The position numbers and the translations under genes are program-made. Of a DNA stretch of 64,000 nt, positions 1,454 through 46,300 are shown piece after piece. Origin of the DNA: Rhododendron vialii (lineage: Eukaryota; Streptophyta; Magnoliopsida; Ericales; Ericaceae). The number at the start of each line of letters is the position of its first letter. Within the stretch, counting starts at the first letter, position 1. Under the pieces are notes generated by a model. That model did no database searches. It was not told the origin of the DNA and saw only the letters and a list, made by a program, of their open reading frames with translations. The stretch is taken from positions 9,730,501 to 9,794,500 of the forward strand of contig NC_080560.1 in assembly GCF_030253575.1 (NCBI RefSeq), in the 5' to 3' direction.

Positions 1454-4400
1454 ATGCCTCTCATAAGTGAAAATGGGGATCCAAATAAGCTTAAGGTATG
1501 TGATTGCTTCTTTTTATTCTTTCAGGCTGTGCTTGGATCATGCTGAAAGAAATGACATTGTCTTGTTCACTTACTTTATCCTTCATATTTTCCATAGAAA
1601 GTCAAACATTGGAGTGAGATAAACCGAGTTTCTTAAATGGAATCTGAGGATTGTATGCTGCCATTTGCAGGGAAAGTATGCTGCAATGTTGGTTTGTTGG
1701 CTTCTCGGAAATGGGTGCCTTTTCTCGTGGAATAGTATGCTTAAGATTGAAGATTACTATGCTACCTTATTCCCAGTAATTTCATTTCCAATTTCTGCAT
1801 TATTTTCTTGGGTTTCAGCAGCCATTTTCTTTGGTTTCTGCAGCGTTGTATTTGTCTAAAGATGGCACGACTAAATTCATGATTGGACAATTTTAGCTGT
1901 AGTTCCACGCAATCCAAAAGTCCTTCAAAGAATTAGCCAACTAGGCTGTAAATTAGTGCTTTGTTCATTACAGAACTATAGAATCCATGCTCTTAAAGCA
2001 GAGTTTAGCCCAATTTTTTAGCGTGCAGATGCAAGTTGAAGTACCTTGGAAATTCCCTATCTCAAATTTCTTGCAATCTGGAAAATCTATGCAAACTGAA
2101 ATGGTGAAAACCTAGTGTTTTGCCATATAAAACTTAGCAAATCCTGTATTTCCTGTTACTTGAACCATCATCGCTTTCAAATGCCACTGTCAAGAAGGCA
2201 TCTCTGGTCTCTGCCCTTCTTGTTCTTCCATCCTACGATTGGATAAAAGCCAGTGATGAGTATTTGAGCACTATACTAGATGTTTCGTTGAACGATTCAA
2301 ATCCGCACTGTACTAAATTGACTGGTGATTTTACTGTAAAGGAATACTCCATGGTTATCTTGAATTAATTGATGACTTTCATTGCTTACTGGCCACAAAC
2401 GGTTATACTTTTGTAAATTGCATGACGTTAATAACTTAATGCTATGTTCTTTCCCTCACATTCGAACTTTCTGCCTAGATATTGTTCTCCTCCTGAATTT
2501 TGTCGATTCAAGGAGATTGTTTATTGGATATGCCTTATCCAATTTGCCTTGAGATTTAGTTCATTATGAGCATAATTGATGAGTAACTTTTCTTCTTTTT
2601 GTATTCTTGCCGTTGTTGTGCTTGTTGCAACCAATTTGACAGAATTTTCTTTCCTTATACAGCGATACCACCCCTCGAGGGTCCTCTCTCTTGTATATCA
2701 ACCGTTTGCACTTGGAGTGCTTGCAATCCTGACATACAAAGAGGCAAAAATCAATACTAGGCGAAGGAACCTATTTGGATATACCCTATTTTTCATAAGC
2801 TCTCTTTTGGTTCTTGTTGTAAGTACCGTAATTACATGGTGTTACACCAAGTTTGCTCCTTAAACGTATGGTTTTTACTAACTGATACTCCTTTATCAAT
2901 CATGTGAGTCTGTATTGAACTATTGATCCACCTTTCCATTATTACATGTTAGTTGGATTTAGCTACATCTGGGAAAGGGGGAATTGGAACTTATATCGGA
3001 ATATGTTTTATTAGCGGTGCTTTTGGAGTTGCGGATGCTCATGTTCAGGGTGGAATGGTTGGAGATCTCTCATACATGCTACCCGAGTTTATTCAAGTAG
3101 GTTTCTATGGATGGCTTATTTGTGGTCAACAAGTTTTTTTCTCTATTCTTATTTGGCATAGTTTCAAAAATTTGAAAATCTTCTTGCTTTTTTGATTCTT
3201 CAGCCTTTCCTTGCTGGTTTGGCTGCATCCGGGGCTCTGACCTCTGGCCTGAGGTTGATTACAAAGGCAGCATTTGAGAATTCCAGGGATGGCCTGCGCA
3301 AGGGAGCTAGTAAATTCAAGTCCTTTCTTTGGCCACATCGAATTACACTTGGCCGCATCGAATTGTACTTGGCAGCGATGAATTACTCTTGGCCGCATCA
3401 AATTGCACTTGGCCACTACGAATTACCTTGGCCGCATCAAATTGCTCTTGACAGCATCGAATTGCTCTTGGCCACATTGAATTGCACTTGGCAGCTACGA
3501 ATTGCACTTGGCCGCATCGAATTGCACGCTACGAAGTGCAATTTGATGCGGCCAAAAGTAATTTGATGCGGCCAAGAGTAATTTGTAGCGGCCAAGTGCA
3601 ATTCGATATGGCCAAGTGCAATTCGATGCGACCAAGAGTAATTTGTAGTGGCCAAGTGCAATTCAATTCGTCCAAGAGTAATTCGTAACGTCCAAGTGCA
3701 ATTCGATGCGGCCAAGTGTAATCTTTGAAGTTATGTCACTGGAAATGTTGTCAAAATATGATACTCTCCCTCTCTTCCTTAATGTTGGCCCCTGTTGGGG
3801 ATTCCAATTTTTTAAGAATGATATGCAATTATTGCACTTCCATCAAATTTCATGATATAATTCCCTTAGTTGCCCCTTATTGTATGACTCACTCGGAATA
3901 CAATACTAAATGCTGACGAGGATAGTCTTGGAAACTTACCAATTTTAGGATTTTGACATTTCAAGAGGGACTAACATTTTGGAACATCCTGAAATTGAAA
4001 ACCAGACCAACAATTAGTCATGGAGGAAGTATCTAATTATCTATAGAGTTATAGTTTTTACTTTCGCGGGAATGAAAACTTCTCAACTTCATGTTAACTT
4101 TTTGGTGCAGTGTCCGAGTATGAAGCAAAGTACATTGTGTTGATGAATTTCAATGCATTTTTTCCTCTCAAGGTTTCGTTTTTGGAAGTTCATTCTCTAA
4201 CTTACATAACTGTCATTTTCCGACCTGAACTTCTACTAATCGTCTATCTTTGTCAATCTGTTTATGTAGTTCCCTATCATGCAACTTGTACTCTATATGA
4301 CATCCCCATCCAAAGACAGAGTTGGAATCCGCTAAAATTAGCCAACAAAAGAGCTTTTCTAGCAATATACAAAAGTGTATATATCATTAGTTTTTTTGGG

Positions 4401-6933
4401 TAACTAGTGTATATCAGTAGCTAGATTCATTGATTCATCTATCTCATTATATTGAGGCATCGAAGCAACTAGTAATTGCTAATTTTCTCTTTCTGTTCTT
4501 TGCAGTTTTATTCTTTGCTATCTCTGCATTCTTTGAACTGCTCTGCGTTCTTCTCTATGCATTTGTATTTCCAAAGCTTCCAATTGTAAAGTATTACCGC
4601 TCAAAGGCAGCATCAGAAGGATCCAAAACTGTTTCAGCTGACCTTGCTGCTGGTGGCATTTATGCAGAACCAGTACAAGAAGTACGTCTTTTTTTCTTAC
4701 TACTGTGATGATTATATGAAGCAAGATACTCCCATGAACGCTTAACTTTTTGTATATGTGTATACATCGACCAATCATTTCGTGGAACCCATGCAGGCTG
4801 AGGAAGACCCTAAACGACTCGAGCGACTAAGCACCAAGGAATTGTTGTTTAAAAACATGGATTATGCACTTGACATGTTTCTGATTTATGCTCTGACATT
4901 GTCGATTTTCCCTGGATTTTTATCTGAAGATACTGGATCACATAGATGGGGCGGATGGTTAGTGTTTCATTGCAGATTGTTATTGTTCTCGTTTTAGTTT
5001 TGTGCATATTCATTTTTCGTGTTTCCCAAAACCCGAGTAATGAAAAGAATGGAACACTCATCGTTTTGGTCTCATTTGTGTTCATGAGAAAATAGTTTTA
5101 CAAAGTTCGTTAGTTCAATAACATCTTTTTGGTTTGTTCCTGAGAGTGGATTTGGTATCAATTTTCATAAACGTTTCCTGGAAAAAGTTTTCGGAAAGGG
5201 ATAGCCAAGGTTCTGTATTGTTTGCAAATAGAAAACAAAATATAGAAAGCAAATTAATACAAAACAGGTAATTATGTTGCTTATTACATGTGAAAACATT
5301 GTCAGCATACAGATATGTGTATACTGTGTGTGCTGTTACTCGTTCATAAGTCGATAATATGAATAAATACCCATATAAACGTTCTTTCTTGTGGTATCTT
5401 GACTACTTGCATCCGGTAATAATTCAAAAATACGATTAACTACCCATATAAGCGTTTTTTCTTGGGGTATCTTGACTCCTTGCAAGTGATAATATTGCAG
5501 GTATGTACTTGTTCTGTTAGCAATGTATGACGTGTGGGATCTTATCGGGAGATACATACCACTTGTAAAATGCATGAAGTTGGAATCGCGGAAAGGACTT
5601 ACTATTGCAATTCTTTCTCGCCTCCTTCTTGTCCCGGCCTTCTATTTCACAGTCAAATATGGCGACCAGGGTTGGATGATAATGCTTACATCCTTCTTGG
5701 GGTTAACTAATGGTTACCTCACTGTCTGTGTCCTGACTTCTGCTCCAAAAGGTTACAAGGTTCGTTGATTTATTACCTACTTATTTCTCGAGTTTGTTAC
5801 TAGATCTCTACTAGCTAGATACTAGGTTTTATTTTTTTGCTCGGCCTCTGCTAGATATTAGGTTGCGGTTGATGACGGGAAAGTACAGGGAAAAAAGAAT
5901 AAAAATTGGTATTTGTTTCCTGTCTGTGTCCTAAACCCTTTTTTCTTTGATCAATCAAGAAAATCTTATTACCAAGGTGATAATTAGCAAAAGTTGTTAT
6001 ACCAAGAAGACGTCATCGTAAGGAAATTGCACCACAACTAGGTTGGCACCTGAGCCTCACAAAAATGATATGCAACCAAGAACCTTATATGCATCGAACC
6101 ACACCATAACCAATTATTGGCAAGAGGCCAACCAGAGTAACCGAGAAAACTTTTCGATCTGCGCATCTACCAAAAAACTACAAGAGCAAAGACCCTACCC
6201 AAACAAGTCTCTGGAAAGCTGGAAACCAAGATAAAAATGAAAACCAAATCAAATAACCTCAAGGATATTAGGGAAACGGTAAACCAAACCATTCAAAGAG
6301 AAATCATTTTGTACAAGCTTTGGGCAGAGGGTATATGTCAAAGTACCGGACATGTTCTGTCAAGGTTACAGGGGACACAACAAAACATACTTATTCCTCG
6401 ACATATTTCTTAGGAAAAATGGTGATTTCATAAATGATATGGGAGTTTTTTGTGCATAGTTTTGAGATAGACTTATATTCCAAATATGGTTCCCCCATTA
6501 TTTCTAACTAAAAATCCAGATCCTACACCCTTGCCAAGTCGTAAGAGTATGACACGGGTACTCTACTTTTAGAAGAGCCCATGTACCCTAGACATTTAGC
6601 TTTTTTTGAAGGGTAAAGTTTCTTGCGAATCATGTCACATAAAATGCACGAGATGGTGCTTCGTAAGAATATTGAAAACTAAAACTTTTACGTACTTTCT
6701 GCTAAATGGAATCCCTAATATGCTAATTCTCTTGTATATTCCTTCGTTTGTTTTACCTCTTGAGTTAGTTTTATAGGAATCATTTCCTCTCAGGGTATTC
6801 CTAACGGACAGTGGTTAATATGTAGGGACCGGAGCAAAATGCATTGGGAAATATACTTGTGCTGTTTCTTCTAGGGGGGATATTTGCAGGGGTGACACTT
6901 GACTGGTTGTGGCTCATAGGGAAAGGTTGGTGA
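1454..6933 (+). CDS. Equilibrative nucleoside transporter (ENT3-like)
   Basis: Complete nine-exon gene for a polytopic membrane protein of the SLC29/ENT family, which moves nucleosides (in plants usually by proton symport at the plasma membrane). Coding exons: 1454-1495, 1671-1775, 2663-2818, 2953-3096, 3204-3309, 4506-4681, 4797-4957, 5501-5759, 6826-6933. All junctions are GT-AG, phases agree, and the sum is 1257 nt (418 aa), the usual length for the Arabidopsis ENT3/4/6/7 clade. Recognisable family segments include YHPSRVLSLVYQPFALG, GALTSGLRLITKAAFE, FPKLPIVKYYRSKAASEGSK, WDLIGRYIPLVK, YGDQGWMIMLTSFLGLTNGY and the C-terminal GGIFAGVTLDWLWLIGK. The large cytosolic loop lies near residues 220-260. 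The start was chosen because MPLISENGDP splices in frame to GKYAAMLVCWLLGNG. Intron 5 (3310-4505) holds the foldback repeat array. Substrate specificity cannot be read from sequence. Confidence 0.93.
3329..3722. repeat. Inverted pair of 20-bp tandem arrays (foldback) in ENT intron 5
   Basis: The left arm (about 3329-3527) is roughly ten diverged copies of a 20-bp unit close to TTGGCCGCATCGAATTGCAC. After an 8-bp spacer the right arm (about 3536-3722) is nine to ten copies of the reverse complement, GTGCAATTCGATGCGGCCAA. Copies vary at a few positions (GCAGC, CTACG, ACTC for GCAC), so the array has aged, yet the arms can still pair nearly end to end. An RNA of the intron would form a long imperfect hairpin. 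Open frames through it are artefacts of the repeat. No terminal sequence or target-site duplication typical of a known transposon family was recognised. Confidence 0.85.
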
Positions 6934-13937: not shown

Positions 13938-16900
13938 AACCGGTATCAAAGCCTTAGGTTGCAAAAACTAGGGTTTCGTTTCCGATTGTGGCTATGGCGG
14001 CTAAATTCGAGATTGCGAAGTTTGATGTGCAGAGCAGCAGTTTCAGTCTTTGGAGAGTAAAGATGAAGGCTCTGTTAACCCAACAAGGATTGCACAAGGT
14101 TTTGTTAGGCAAGACTAATTCTGGAATCAAAGAGGAAGATTGGGATGATACGGATGCCAAAGCTCTGAGTTCTATTCAGTTGAGTCTGGCAGATGACGTT
14201 CTTCGCGAGGTGGAAGAAGAAACTTCAGCGGCAGGAATTTGGCTGAAGTTGGAAGGCATATATATGACGAAGTCGCTTACCAACAGGTTATATCTCAAAC
14301 AACGTCTTTATACGTTTCGTATGCGAGAAGGTATACCTGTTAAAGATCATTTAGACGAGTTCAACCGTATTATTATGGATCTGAAAAATATTGATAGTAA
14401 AATTGAGGATGAGAACCAAGCCCTAATTTTGCTATGTTCTTTACCACTTTCGTATGAGCACTTTGTTACAACCCTATTGTATGGCAAAGACACGATATCC
14501 ATGGAGGATGTTAAGGCCAGCCTATATTCGAAAGAATTGAGGAAAAAAGTGTCAGGTGAGGGTGATGCACATGCGGAGGGTTTGTTTGTTAGGGGAAGAA
14601 CAACAGAAAGGGTGGATTCAAGTAATAGGGGAAGATCCAGATCATCAGGTAAGAAGAAGGGAAAGTGCAATTATTGCAAGAAACCCGGGCATTGGAAAAG
14701 TGACTGTTTAAAACTCAAAGAGAAGGAAAAAGAAGACCAGAAAGGGGTTAAAGTAATTGCTGGAATTGCTGAAAGTTTAGATGAGTCAGATAATGTGTTA
14801 TCAGTTACAGATGGCGATTCTCACTCTAATACCGAGTGGGTTCTAGATTCTGTATGTTCATACCATATGTGTCCGCATAGAGAGTGGTTTTCTACTTATG
14901 AGGCGGTCAATGGTGGTACAGTTTTGATGGGCAACAACATGGCCTGTAAGACTGTTGGTTCAGGAACGATTCAGCTTAGGATGCATGACGGTATTGTTAG
15001 GACTTTATCTGAGGTTCGACATGTTCCAGATTTGAGAAAAATCTTATATACCTGGGTGCTCTTGATTCTCATGGTTGCAAATTCCTCGGTGAAGGTGGAG
15101 TTTTGAAAGTCTCAAGGGGTGCATTAGTACTGATGAAGGGTCAGAAGCGTGGTAACCTCTATACACTCCAGGGCAGTATAGTTATAGGTGCTACAGCAAC
15201 GGTTGCTTCATCCAAGGTTTCAGATTTAGACTTGACTCGTTTGTGGCATATGCGCCTTGGGCATATGAGCGAAAGGGGGATGACAGTTTTGAGCAAACAG
15301 GGTTTGCTATGTGGCTAGAAAATTGAGAAACTGGATTTCTGTGAGCATTGTGTCTACGGCAAGCAGTGCAGGGTAAAATTCAGTACAGCTGTTCATCGCA
15401 CCAAAGGCACGGTGGATTATTTTCACTCGGATCTTTAGGGTCCCGCAGAGGTAACTTCTAAAGGTGGTTTTCGATATTTTATGAGTATTATCGATGATTT
15501 CTCTTGTAAAGTTTGGATGTATATGTTGAAACATAAGAGTGACACCTTTAATACATTCAAACAGTTTAAAACTTTGATTGAGAATCAAACTGGTAAGAAA
15601 ATAAAACGTTTGAGAACTGACAATGGTATGGAGTTTTGTCTTGGCGAGTTTGATAGGTTCTGCAGTGATGAGGGCATTGTGAGGCATCACACAGTGAGAA
15701 AAACCCCTCAGCAGAATGGTGTGGCTGAACGAATGAACATGACTCTTTTGGAGAAGGCACGTTGTATGTTGTCCAATTCCGGATTGGGTAAAGAATTTTG
15801 GGCTGAAGCCGTTTCCACAATATGCTATTTGGTGAACAGGTCTCCGTCGACTGCTATTGAGTGTAAGACTCCGTTTGAGGTATGGTCAGGTCATCCGGCT
15901 GATTATTCTGTGTTGCTTGTTTTTGGGTGTCCAGCTTACGCTCATGTGAATGAAGGTAAACTGGAGCCATGGGCCAAGAAGTGTATTTTCTTGGGTTATG
16001 CAGCAGGTGTCAAAGGGTACAGGTTATGGTGCTCTGATGATTTGAAGTTTTTGATCAGTAGGGATGTGACTTTTGATGAAAATTATTTAATTAAGGGGTC
16101 TAAGCAGGTTGATGATACAGTTCAGAAACAGAGTGTTCCAAAGCAGGTGGAGTTTTTGAGTGAATCTTCTGACTCAGGGAAGAAGCACATTGAGAAGCCA
16201 ATTAAAGAGGAGTTCAAGAGTTCAGACACAGAGGTTGATGCGTTAGTTGAGCAACCACGCACTATTGCTAAAGATAGGCCAAAGAGGGAGATTCAGCCTC
16301 CTGAAAGGTATTCGGCTTATTCTGAGATGGTGGCCTATGCTTTATCAGTTGCTGAAACAGTTGAGTATGAGGAGCCTTCAAGCTATACAGAAGCTGTTTT
16401 GAGTGCTGAGTCTGCACAGTGGTTTGTTGCTATGAATGAGGAGATTGAGTCTCTTCAGAAGAATCAGACATGGGAGTTAGTAGAACCGCTGAAAGGGAAG
16501 AGGGTTGTTGGATGCAAGTGGGTCTTCAAGCGCAAACCAGGTATTCCAGAGGTAGAAGATGCTTGGTTCAAAGCTCGGCTAGTGGCGAAAGGATACAGCC
16601 AGAAGGAGGGTGTTGACTACAATGAGGTATTTTCACCAGTTGTAAAACATAGTTCCATTCGCACTTTACTTACTATTGTTGCATGTTATGATCTTGAGTT
16701 AGAGCAACTTGATGTCAAAACTGCGTTTTTGCATGGCGAGCTTGAGGAATAGATTGATATGCATCAGCCTGAGGGATTTGTTATTTCTGGTAAGGAGGAT
16801 CACGTTTGTTTACTTCATAAATCTTTGTATGGCCTCAAGCAATCCCCTAGGCAGTGGTATAAGCGGTTTGATACTTTTATGATAAGCCAGTCATATTCAA

Positions 16901-18299
16901 GAAGTGAGTATGACAGTTGTGTATATTTTCGAAAACTTTCAGATGGTTCATTTGTTTATCTACTGTTGTATGTTGATAATATGCTTATTGCTGCCAAGAG
17001 TGTGTCAGAAATCAACAGGTTGAAACAACAGTTAGGTGGTGAATTTGAGATGAAAGATTTGGGTGCGGCAAAATGTATTTTGGGTATGGAGATTTGCAGA
17101 GATCGAGTAGCTGGCAAACTATTTTTGAATCAAAAGTCTTATGTTCTTAAAGTGCTTGAGCGCTTTGCCATGCAGAACTCGAAGCCAGTCAGTACCCCTT
17201 TGGCAGCACACTTTCGACTTTCAGCTGAGTTGTCATCACAGTCGGAGGATGAGGAAAAGTATATGTCTCAGGTTCCATATTCGTGCGCAGTTGGGAGCCT
17301 TATGTACGCCATGGTATGTACTCGTCCTGATATTTCACATGCAGTTAGTGTCGTTAGTCGTTATATGGGGCGTCCAGGAAAGGCACATTGGGAGGCTGTG
17401 AAATGGATACTACGGTATTTGTGCGGAACTGCAGGTGTTGGTCTATTGTTTGGGGTTGCCAATTCTGCTAATCATGTTGTTGGTTATGTTGATTCGGATT
17501 TTGCCGGTGACCACGATAAGAGGAGGTCTTTGACGGGTTATGTTTTTACTCTGTCCGGAAGTGCCATTAGTTGGAAAGCTACTTTACAGGCTACAGTCGC
17601 GCTGTCTACAACAAAAGCGGAGTATATGGCCATTGCTGAAGCTGTGAAGGAGGCATTGTGGATGAGAGGTTTGCTTTGTGAGCTTGGTCTTGCACAGGGT
17701 GTGAGTTCAGTATTTTGTGATTCGCAGAGTGCTATATATTTGACTAAAAATCTAATGTATCATGAGAGGACCAAGCATATTGATGTCAGGTATCATTTCG
17801 TTCGGGATATCATCTCACAGAAGCAAGTTGAGGTGAAGAAAGTGGGCACGGCAGATAACCCAGCAGATATGTTGACTAAACCGGTTCCGGTTGCCAAGTT
17901 CAAGCATTGCTTGGGCTTGCTTGGTATTTGCAGTTGATCGCCCCTCGGGGGCATTTGGCGACGCTACAACAAAAATCACCTTTTACAGCGTTCGAAAAAC
18001 GCTATAAAAAGTAATAGATAGCGTTCTCAGGAACGCCTTATTTGCCGATGCTGTGAAATGTCTGGACCTTTTGATAGCGTTCTTTCAACGCTATGAATTC
18101 TTAGTCTTTTATAGCGTTTTTTGAACGTTATATATTAGTACTCTATTATAGCGGTGAAGGAACGATGTGTGATTCTAGATCTTTAATAGCATTCTTTGTA
18201 AGTTATGGTCTCTACCTTAATGATAGCGTTTTTTGAACGCTACATATCACTGTCCTTTTTTTTGTGAGAGTTCAGCTCACTGTGTATGATTGCTTTAAA

Positions 18300-43311: not shown

Positions 43312-46300
43312 ATGGACGACTCTAATCCAGAGCCTACCAACTTTCTGAAGGAATTCTACATACCTGATTACATACTTCTGCCCAATTCAGAGGGTGAAGT
43401 TCTTCCTCATGTACCAAGATGCCCAGTTATCGTGTTCATCAACTCTAAAAGTGGTGGTCAGTTGGGTGGGGCTGTTCTTATCACATATCGTTCTCTCCTG
43501 AACAAAAATCAGGTGTTTTGGCCTATAGAGATTTTCCTTTTTTTCACTGGCCTGTGGTGATGTTAATAATTGCAGAGATCTGGTATTCTATTGATTTTCA
43601 ACATATGTTCAGACCATTTTTGACATGTGACTGGCTTCTAATTTGTAAAATAAGGTTTTTGATTTGCTGGAAGAGGCTCCTGATGATGTCTTACGCAGAC
43701 TGTATCTCAATCTAGAAAAGCTCAAGCTTAATGGTGATGAATTGGCTCCTAAGATTCAGGAGAGACTGAGGATCATTGTGAGTTGAATTTACAAAGGTTC
43801 TTGTTGCCGTGTATAGCTTACTTTTATTAGTTTTATGAGCTTATGGGCAATATCGCTCCAACCTTACTGACATGGACGTTCGTCATTAGGTTGCTGGTGG
43901 GGATGGAACTGTTAGCTGGCTTCTTGGAGTTGTTTCCGACCTGAAATTATCTCAGCCACCACCAATTGCTCCAGTGCCCCTGGGAACTGGAAACAACATT
44001 CCATTCGCTTTTGGTTGGGTAGGAAAAAAAGTGTTATTTTGGTCATGATGCTTTAACTTGAAAGACAGTACTCAAGTAGAATGCATTTGTAGCACATAAA
44101 GCCTAAAATTAGAAATGGGTCTAGCATTGAAATTCAGTAGCCATTATAGTTTAAGATCATGTTCTTCATAGCCTTGTCTATACCCACAACTGATGCAATT
44201 CCAAGTCTCTGATGTCAAAACACTTCATCTAACACCATTTACTTTCATGTCTTTTGTGTAGTTGACAAGGTAATACATTTTTTAGTAGAAACTTATGTAA
44301 GCATGCAGTAAGTATTTAGGTCAGCAAGGAGTTGAGATCTCCGAGAAGTTTTATCAACACGTTAACTAAACATACCCCATGAATTAGGTAATCTACATTT
44401 TGAACAAGTCAGAACCGATCAAAAAGGTTAGTCATAAGTGGGATATGAAGAAATACATGGGAGTCTATGGGCACAGGAGGCACTAGATCTTATAATTTGA
44501 ACTTCTTTAAACATGCTGGGTAAAATACAGTTACTTATTGCAAAAGCACTACAAATAACCTGGGTTCAATATTTGGCAGGGAAAGAAGAATCCCAGGACA
44601 GATCATCATTCTGTTGAGTCATTTTTGCGTCAAGTAATCGAAGCCAAGGAAATGAAGATAGACAGGTTGGAGCTAAAATATTGAAATATTCCATAGAAGC
44701 TGGTTTTCTGAATTGTTTTTTCCTGATGCTTTTTATTGTTTGTGAATATCAAATTATTCAAGGCATGGCTGTGCCTCTACATCCTTTAATCTCAAATCGT
44801 CTCCACTACTGTAATTAGTTTGCTGTTTGAAATCATAGTTTTCTTTCCAGTCGGAGCATTGGATATGAACTTCTGCATCCAGAAGCTCTGAAACATTGAT
44901 AGACTAATGCTCATTTTCTGTCACAATTAGGTTTGTGGTTTTCTAATTTTGTTGTTACTCTTGTAATTTTCAATATAATACAGCTGGCACCTTCTCATGA
45001 GGATGAGAGCTCCAAAACAAGGCTTCTGTGAACCAATCCCACCTCTTGAGTTACCACATTGTATGCATGCATACAGACAAATATCTTTAACAGACACTCT
45101 GAACATGGTAAGACTATCAAACTTTGCTTATTGTTTCCTGGAAAATTAGGTTCTGCTGATTTACTTCATACGCAAGCAGTTAATAGACAGACAAGAACCT
45201 GTTTACACCCAATTTTGTCCCAAAGTGTTTGAAGAGATTAACTTGGAAAATAATGGCTAAAATTTGGATGTGGAAAAGGGAGAGGATCGCCCCTTTGGGT
45301 TGACGCCTAGATAGGTGAATTGATTGCTTAAATTGGAAGAGCGTAACCCAGATTCATGACCCTAATCTGGAATTAAATTAATTGGGCCTAAGGACTTTAC
45401 CTTAAGGCTTGAGAAAGTTCTGCCAATCCTGTACCAACGTTTCGGTCAAGGCCAAACTCCCAAGGGTTTCCAGGACTCTTTAGTAGGTCCAAATCAGTTA
45501 AAATTTGGCATTGCCTTATTAGGCCTGAGTCCGGAAGGCCTGAATAAACGGAAATGTATGATAGGCCTGATTATACTTTGAGGGCTAGGCTTTGGTTGAT
45601 CAACTGGGCCAAGGCGTTTCGCTAGATGGGCCTGACATTGGGGGTATCTTCTGGGCCCAAGGTAGTTGAAAGCCCAAAACTTTGGTGCTTTAGGCCTAGA
45701 ATGCCTTAAGCCCAAGGCCAGGGTCTCTAGAAAGATGTGGTGGAACAAGAAGCATAGAGTAACTTGCTAGGGTATAGATGGGACCCCACTGCCGAAGTTC
45801 CAATAATGGTGGCCATCCTTGGGGGGAAATGAGTGGAAGCAGCATAGGGCCTCACAAACTGCTCATTCAGGCCTGAGCAAGCTGCTCACAAGCAGCTCAC
45901 TCAAGCCTGTTTGGTTTTTGTTGCGTGATAAGAAAGGGTTCAAGTCCCAAAAATTCCTTTTGTCTTGAATGTTCTTGCAGAGGGAACCAACTTGGAACCT
46001 TCAAGGGCCTACAAGGGACGAGCTGCTCACAAGAAGCTCACTTAGGCCTGTTTGGTTTCTGTTGCGTGATAAGAAAGGGTTCAAGTCCCAAAAATTCCTT
46101 TTGTCTTGAGTCTTCTTGCAAAGGGAACCAACTTGGAACCTTCAAGGGCCCACAAGGGACGAAAAGTAGCCAAAAGATCTTCTCCTTTACATAAAATTTT
46201 CGGCCTTTAGCCTTAAAAGGCCCCAAAGTTCTCCTTTTGGCAAGTACCTATGCAAAAAGAGGGAATAAAGGCCTGAAATAGTTGATTTTAGGCCTCAAAC

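Follow-up and report, generated by a model that had tools for sequence, protein, structure and literature searches.

The window, by which we mean the whole 64,000-nt stretch of Rhododendron vialii DNA analysed here, holds a gene for an equilibrative nucleoside transporter (ENT), the fifth intron of which contains a large inverted tandem array (Table 1). The gene model was assembled by hand, carries no internal stops and gives a product that matches Pfam PF01733 (E 7.6e-33). The array begins 19 nt into the intron and both of its arms are detected by TRF; nine of the left-arm units (3329-3527) are 20 nt long and one is 19 nt. The first-pass annotation had described about ten 20-bp units facing their reverse complements across an 8-bp gap in intron 5, and this was borne out, with ten units on one side and nine plus a partial unit on the other. 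With up to three mismatches allowed, the 20-mer is found 12 times in the 64-kb window, each time within the array, against an expectation of 0.01 (100 shuffles). The TCTTTG repeat at the array edges is weak, as 6-bp matches were common across loci in the same scan, and alone it amounts to no evidence. Right beside the array, at 3762-4041, lies a separate dispersed repeat, which takes 38 of the 42 matches found in one search (67-84% identity, outside the ENT copies).

Table 1. Features of the ENT locus (window positions) and groups of array-bearing loci elsewhere in the genome.
Feature	Position or loci	Strand	Remarks
ENT gene (equilibrative nucleoside transporter)	1454..6933	+	nine coding exons, 418 aa, start to stop
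ENT intron 5	3310..4505	+	GTAAATTC...CTTTGCAG, 1196 nt, contains the array
Left (F) arm	3329..3527	+	10 tandem units, consensus TTGGCCGCATCGAATTGCAC; found by TRF
Spacer	3528..3535	.	GCTACGAA, 8 nt, predicted hairpin tip, the window's own junction type
Right (R) arm	3536..3722	-	nine reverse-complement units and a 7-nt partial unit; found by TRF
TCTTTG, left copy of 6-bp direct repeat	3326..3331	+	array edge; weak
TCTTTG, right copy of 6-bp direct repeat	3722..3727	+	array edge; weak
Loci with Helitron ends	L012, L013, L014, L017, L023, L027, L028, L033, L034, L035, L038
Helitron carriers with both ends	L012, L014, L017, L035		1621 bp; 2390 bp; 685 bp; 3352 bp, the last ending CTAA
X repeat, array-bearing, without carrier Helitron ends	L019, L020, L022, L037, L040, L044, partly L011 and L026
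W repeat, array-bearing, without carrier Helitron ends	L010, L018, L041, L042
V repeat, array-bearing, without carrier Helitron ends	L024, L030, L031, L032

The earlier view, that the array is not a normal MITE and not a plain minisatellite either, is supported. Like a minisatellite, it consists of short units in tandem that recur at many unlinked places, but the units do not keep to a single orientation, and long inverted arms built of tandem subrepeats are a trait of foldback elements. A search of the R. vialii genome (532.6 Mb in 13 contigs) returned at least 325 matches to a 60-nt query and at least 172 to a 461-nt query from the window, with all 13 contigs represented among the matches listed for the 60-nt query. 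The suggestion that the 20-mer might belong to a dispersed family has therefore been confirmed, with hundreds of matches as a lower bound. From the matches listed for the 60-nt query, 37 large clusters were fetched with about 3 kb on either side, so that the sample leans towards query-like units. In these loci and the window there are 29 head-to-head pairs, alongside 32 arrays of two or more units in a single orientation. The window flanks match no flank of the 37 fetched loci, and we refer to such a copy as bare.

Where units of opposite orientation adjoin, the polarity is uniform. Across arrays of at least three units in the window and the distinct loci L009-L061, 42 adjacent opposite pairs run F-to-R and none runs R-to-F, although these pairs are not independent, since one carrier, or a segmental duplication, accounts for several of the loci. 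The junctions, sorted by eye, fall largely into two types: 18 of the 42 show the perfect palindrome ACTTGGCCAAGT (complete in L057) or a shortened or modified version of it, and another 11 have the type found in Helitrons, GAGACCATAAA, close forms of this or its complement. The inverted pair itself is probably the unit that spreads, given the single polarity and the 29 of 42 junctions that belong to two types, and the simplest reading of the sequences is that it arose on one or a few occasions before spreading. The other 13 junctions, including the GCTACGAA of the window, are irregular and fit neither type, so that further origins are possible.

That the window's junction is unlike the two common types would also be expected if its inverted pair had formed within the intron, from a plain array by snap-back copying and independently of other copies. 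Such events may have happened elsewhere in the family: inverted symmetry reaches into the flanks for 52 bp at L049, 84 bp at L050 and 81 bp at L056, which points to inversion in place, taking flank along, at these three loci and counts against a single origin. The window flanks, however, do not mirror each other, being absent from the best inverted flank matches, all 42 examined pairs share one polarity, and a further ENT copy on C6 (below) is also F-then-R, which means that the pair predates the ENT duplication. We therefore consider formation in this intron unlikely.

Carriage by other mobile DNA is best documented for a non-autonomous Helitron family, at least one end of which accompanies the array at 11 of the 37 loci. 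The 5' end of these carriers is A|TCTATATAATATGGAGCAGCG and the 3' end consists of the hairpin GTGCCTTTAGGCAC followed by CTAG|T. Four carriers (685 to 3352 bp) retain both ends, each being flanked by A on the left and T on the right, and so display the 5' TC, the 3' hairpin with CTRR and the insertion between A and T by which Helitrons are recognised. In 261 kb of base-shuffled control sequence, three 5' ends and zero 3' ends arose by chance. We left out of the 11 the single 5' matches with five mismatches at L010 and L036, since the control gave three such in 261 kb, as well as 3' matches with five to seven mismatches at L026 (inside the array), L039 and L045; those at L039 and L045 may be real, the control having none. 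No convincing array-free copy of a carrier was present within the fetched loci, where the joins sit in arrays, between them or at their degenerate edges. At L034 (2162-2209) two Helitrons stand head to tail, the CTAG 3' end of one running directly into the 5' TCTATATAATA end of the next, and at L016 (2898) an array end abuts AATTACTAG|T, which resembles a Helitron 3' end without the hairpin of the carrier family.

Given that many relatives are Helitron-borne, the intronic array could itself be the remnant of a Helitron whose ends have been lost, and a second mode of movement would then be unneeded. Against this, the 64-kb window, searched at the same threshold for the ends of this carrier family only, contains none; the left edge of the array lies just 19 nt from the exon; its flanks are unlike those of any fetched Helitron; and the 14 top-listed arrays by closeness to the window units include none from the 11 Helitron loci. 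We regard an eroded Helitron at this site as quite improbable.

Three further repeats carry arrays without ends of the carrier Helitron; the names X, W and V used for them in Table 1 are labels coined in this analysis. The sequence ctccctccgtcccat, which suggests a Stowaway MITE, occurs near L009, L015 and L021; such a MITE is a possible carrier at L009 and L015, but was ruled out for L021, the partner of which, L043, carries the array without it. A more specific scheme is also conceivable, in which the palindromic cassette is a parasite of mobile DNA that arose once or a few times, has no transposase of its own and moves between unrelated transposon families and into genes via the repair of staggered breaks, which the palindrome itself possibly provokes. 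We entertain this scheme only tentatively.

The flanks of the arrays may report on how bare copies arrive at their sites. The two flanks of each array were compared with each other at 57 sites (two of 59 were set aside for flanks shorter than 40 bp), with 400 mispaired flanks as control, 99% of which scored 13 or less, with a maximum of 33 that arises because some mispaired flanks are homologous. Three of the 57 sites exceed a score of 13. L052 (score 24) has a perfect 24-bp direct repeat that ends at the left edge of the array and resumes 21 nt past the right edge, after a tail common to X repeats, and L029 (score 31) has a 43-bp direct repeat (39/43) that ends at the left edge and starts 5 nt past the right edge. 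At L032 (score 55) the 55-bp repeat is part of a tandem duplication. The remaining sites have duplications of 11 or less, some of low complexity, and six further loci 8 or less; the window has no long flanking duplication, TCTTTG alone being present. Long duplications of unequal length fit the filler repair of staggered breaks better than the action of a transposase, and the two cases L052 and L029 suggest that arrays can be captured at such breaks. Within L032 (2906-3577), a 55-bp unit with the 20-mer-like CTTGGCATCAAATG precedes each of two arrays and is possibly related to the origin of the 20-bp unit.

Plant foldback elements such as FARE of Arabidopsis and SoFT of Solanaceae likewise have inverted arms with tandem subrepeats, and the array could be a foldback transposon or MITE in which such arms would serve as terminal inverted repeats, with the ends being the substrate of a transposase. 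Its shape, with long inverted subrepeat arms and almost no middle, agrees with this, as do the TCTTTG at both window edges and the further inverted flanks of some relatives (those of 52, 84 and 81 bp described above). Unlike in FARE and SoFT, however, no conserved ends or transposase link were found for the arrays studied here: bare copies begin and end, as judged by eye, at differing unit phases and in differing flanks, and no transposase was recognised among open reading frames of at least 130 aa in the 37 loci, inspected by eye over their first 60 residues. No target-site duplication of fixed length recurs over the 57 sites and the six further loci, the window having 6 bp, and many copies lie within Helitrons. 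Mobilisation as a foldback element thus appears improbable.

We consider it reasonably probable that the array in the ENT gene belongs to a dispersed palindromic minisatellite, of which it is an old, bare copy, that the head-to-head pair of this minisatellite spreads largely inside other mobile DNA, and that the array is a passenger in its host gene. Under this reading the spreading unit would be the pair of F arm, short palindromic tip and R arm, not the single 20-mer, and its carriage would be best exemplified by the non-autonomous Helitrons. Copies lacking a carrier, among them the one in the ENT intron, probably entered as filler DNA captured at breaks, and after landing their arms would gain or lose whole 20-bp units independently.

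The copies of the host gene order the history of the array in time. A second ENT copy, 49 kb away on C4, matches at 99.1% identity across 3.78 kb and contains the entire array; the two copies, at C4:9684765 and C4:9733800, represent a recent ENT duplication. The copy on C6 (L069 and L068, C6:42265723-42280009) is 93-96% identical in exons and 81-89% in introns, and its array has the same boundaries but comprises seven F and two R units. The alignment lengths of exons 3 and 5 in this copy are off by 2 and 1 nt respectively, which would shift the frame, and the sequence of intron 5 is found in two places 13 kb apart, for which reasons the C6 copy is probably a pseudogene; stops were also reported in one C6 match, which extends into intron. 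An older paralog on C13, with 79% identity across 56 exon 6 residues, has a short intron 5 that measures roughly 340 nt by eye and in which no 20-mer match was found at up to three mismatches. The divergence of this C13 intron prevents an alignment, so that the target site is unreadable there and provides no true empty site for the window. With the array in the C4 and C6 copies and absent from C13, its entry most likely dates to after the split from C13 and before that of C4 and C6. An assembly error, which had been raised as a possible refutation, did not hold, as the array is found in three ENT copies, whole in the 99%-identical copy 49 kb away and with the same edges on C6. When the unit order of the F arm was compared between the window and C6, the order-preserving identity was 0.893 over seven units compared with 0.859 when permuted (p 0.034); the same test with eight 'units' gave p 0.87, the eighth being the junction.

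The first-pass annotation further proposed that variation between copies would record how such an array expands and inverts, and this held in part. The lengths of F and R arms vary widely and do not rise together (Spearman -0.28, p 0.08, n=42, with the window F arm set at 10 units, for which there are 11 overlapping matches, and the R arm of the third pair in L017 cut by the locus end). Mirror order of unit variants reached p<0.05 in 3 of 28 pairs (the 29 minus one with an arm under four units), with about 1.4 expected by chance, and direct order did so in 4 of 28. The possibility that one window arm is a mirror copy of the other was rejected, as no mirror register fell below p 0.21 and a second test gave p 0.26. 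That arm lengths are not positively correlated and mirror order is rare suggests that each arm gains and loses units on its own and that age or reshuffling has made most inversions untraceable. The arms thus vary independently in length, whereas the inversion step is unreadable in most copies, that of the window included.

Long inverted repeats in plants can feed Dicer-like enzymes, and it is conceivable, as the first-pass annotation proposed, that the intronic stem does so, yielding small RNAs, or tunes the splicing of ENT. The predicted RNA fold of 3309-3740 is indeed very strong (-260.9 kcal/mol against a shuffle mean of -117.9, sd 5.8, n=100, z -24.6), with 324 of 394 nt paired in a long, broken stem whose longest uninterrupted helix is 31 bp. 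The array also sits 19 nt into the intron and is retained in full in both near-identical C4 copies, although these are too recent to reveal conservation. The arms, as noted, do not lengthen in concert, the C13 paralog is without the array and the C6 copy is down to two R units, a loss of most of the hairpin which weighs little because that copy is probably a pseudogene. The window has zero Rfam matches at gathering thresholds. A functional hairpin would seem very unlikely, and the evidence leans towards a passenger role, the array most likely being removed with its intron by splicing. The reading frame of exon 5 continues uninterrupted into the left arm, for 134 aa in all (window 3162-3566). 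We dismissed this open frame as an incidental feature, since the consensus 20-mer is stop-free in all six frames (by eye), a property that means intron retention would append a repetitive peptide.

Dispersed tandem arrays are thought to spread within rolling-circle transposons and to seed satellites. In the oyster Helentron/HINE element Cg_HINE (PMC7492417), satellite-like arrays have monomers averaging 140-180 bp, and an array is always in one orientation per element. The arrays described here resemble these in being short tandem arrays spread by non-autonomous rolling-circle elements, with related arrays in several elements, but differ in that their units are 20 bp, stand head to head and also occur outside rolling-circle elements; moreover, the plant carriers end in CTAG like canonical Helitrons. 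The foldback element Tetris of Drosophila virilis (PMC4079207) shares long inverted arms with tandem subrepeats that also occur apart from the element, but it has an external flanking domain and identifiable target-site duplications in its three complete copies, neither of which was found for the window copy. The SIRC cassettes of Arabidopsis, whose authors trace them to a mobile element and regard them as independent later on (PMC10342631), are comparable as short-repeat cassettes, although they are interrupted and of direct repeats whereas the arrays here are contiguous and head to head. Both rolling-circle-borne tandem arrays (PMC7492417) and, in Tetris (PMC4079207), arms that are inverted and built of tandem subrepeats are known kinds of structure. 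The combination of 20-bp units, head-to-head arrangement, one polarity, and occurrence in several carriers as well as bare in a gene did not turn up in the literature searched; our searches, in which the 20-mer itself was not a query, returned no paper whose title or abstract concerned head-to-head arrays within Helitrons.

The travelling unit in this genome seems to be an inverted pair of one polarity that occurs within several carriers and, bare, in a gene, and the three states of the ENT paralogs (no array, a short one and the full one) place its history in order. Two questions, how head-to-head arrays form and whether palindromic arrays pass between transposon families, thereby become testable in one genome. 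Elsewhere in the window, a Copia-type retroelement with gag-like and integrase/reverse-transcriptase-like reading frames (by eye, from the list of open reading frames) occupies 13958-17937, and a 141-bp unit is present at 45880-46162 as two tandem copies that are 94% alike.
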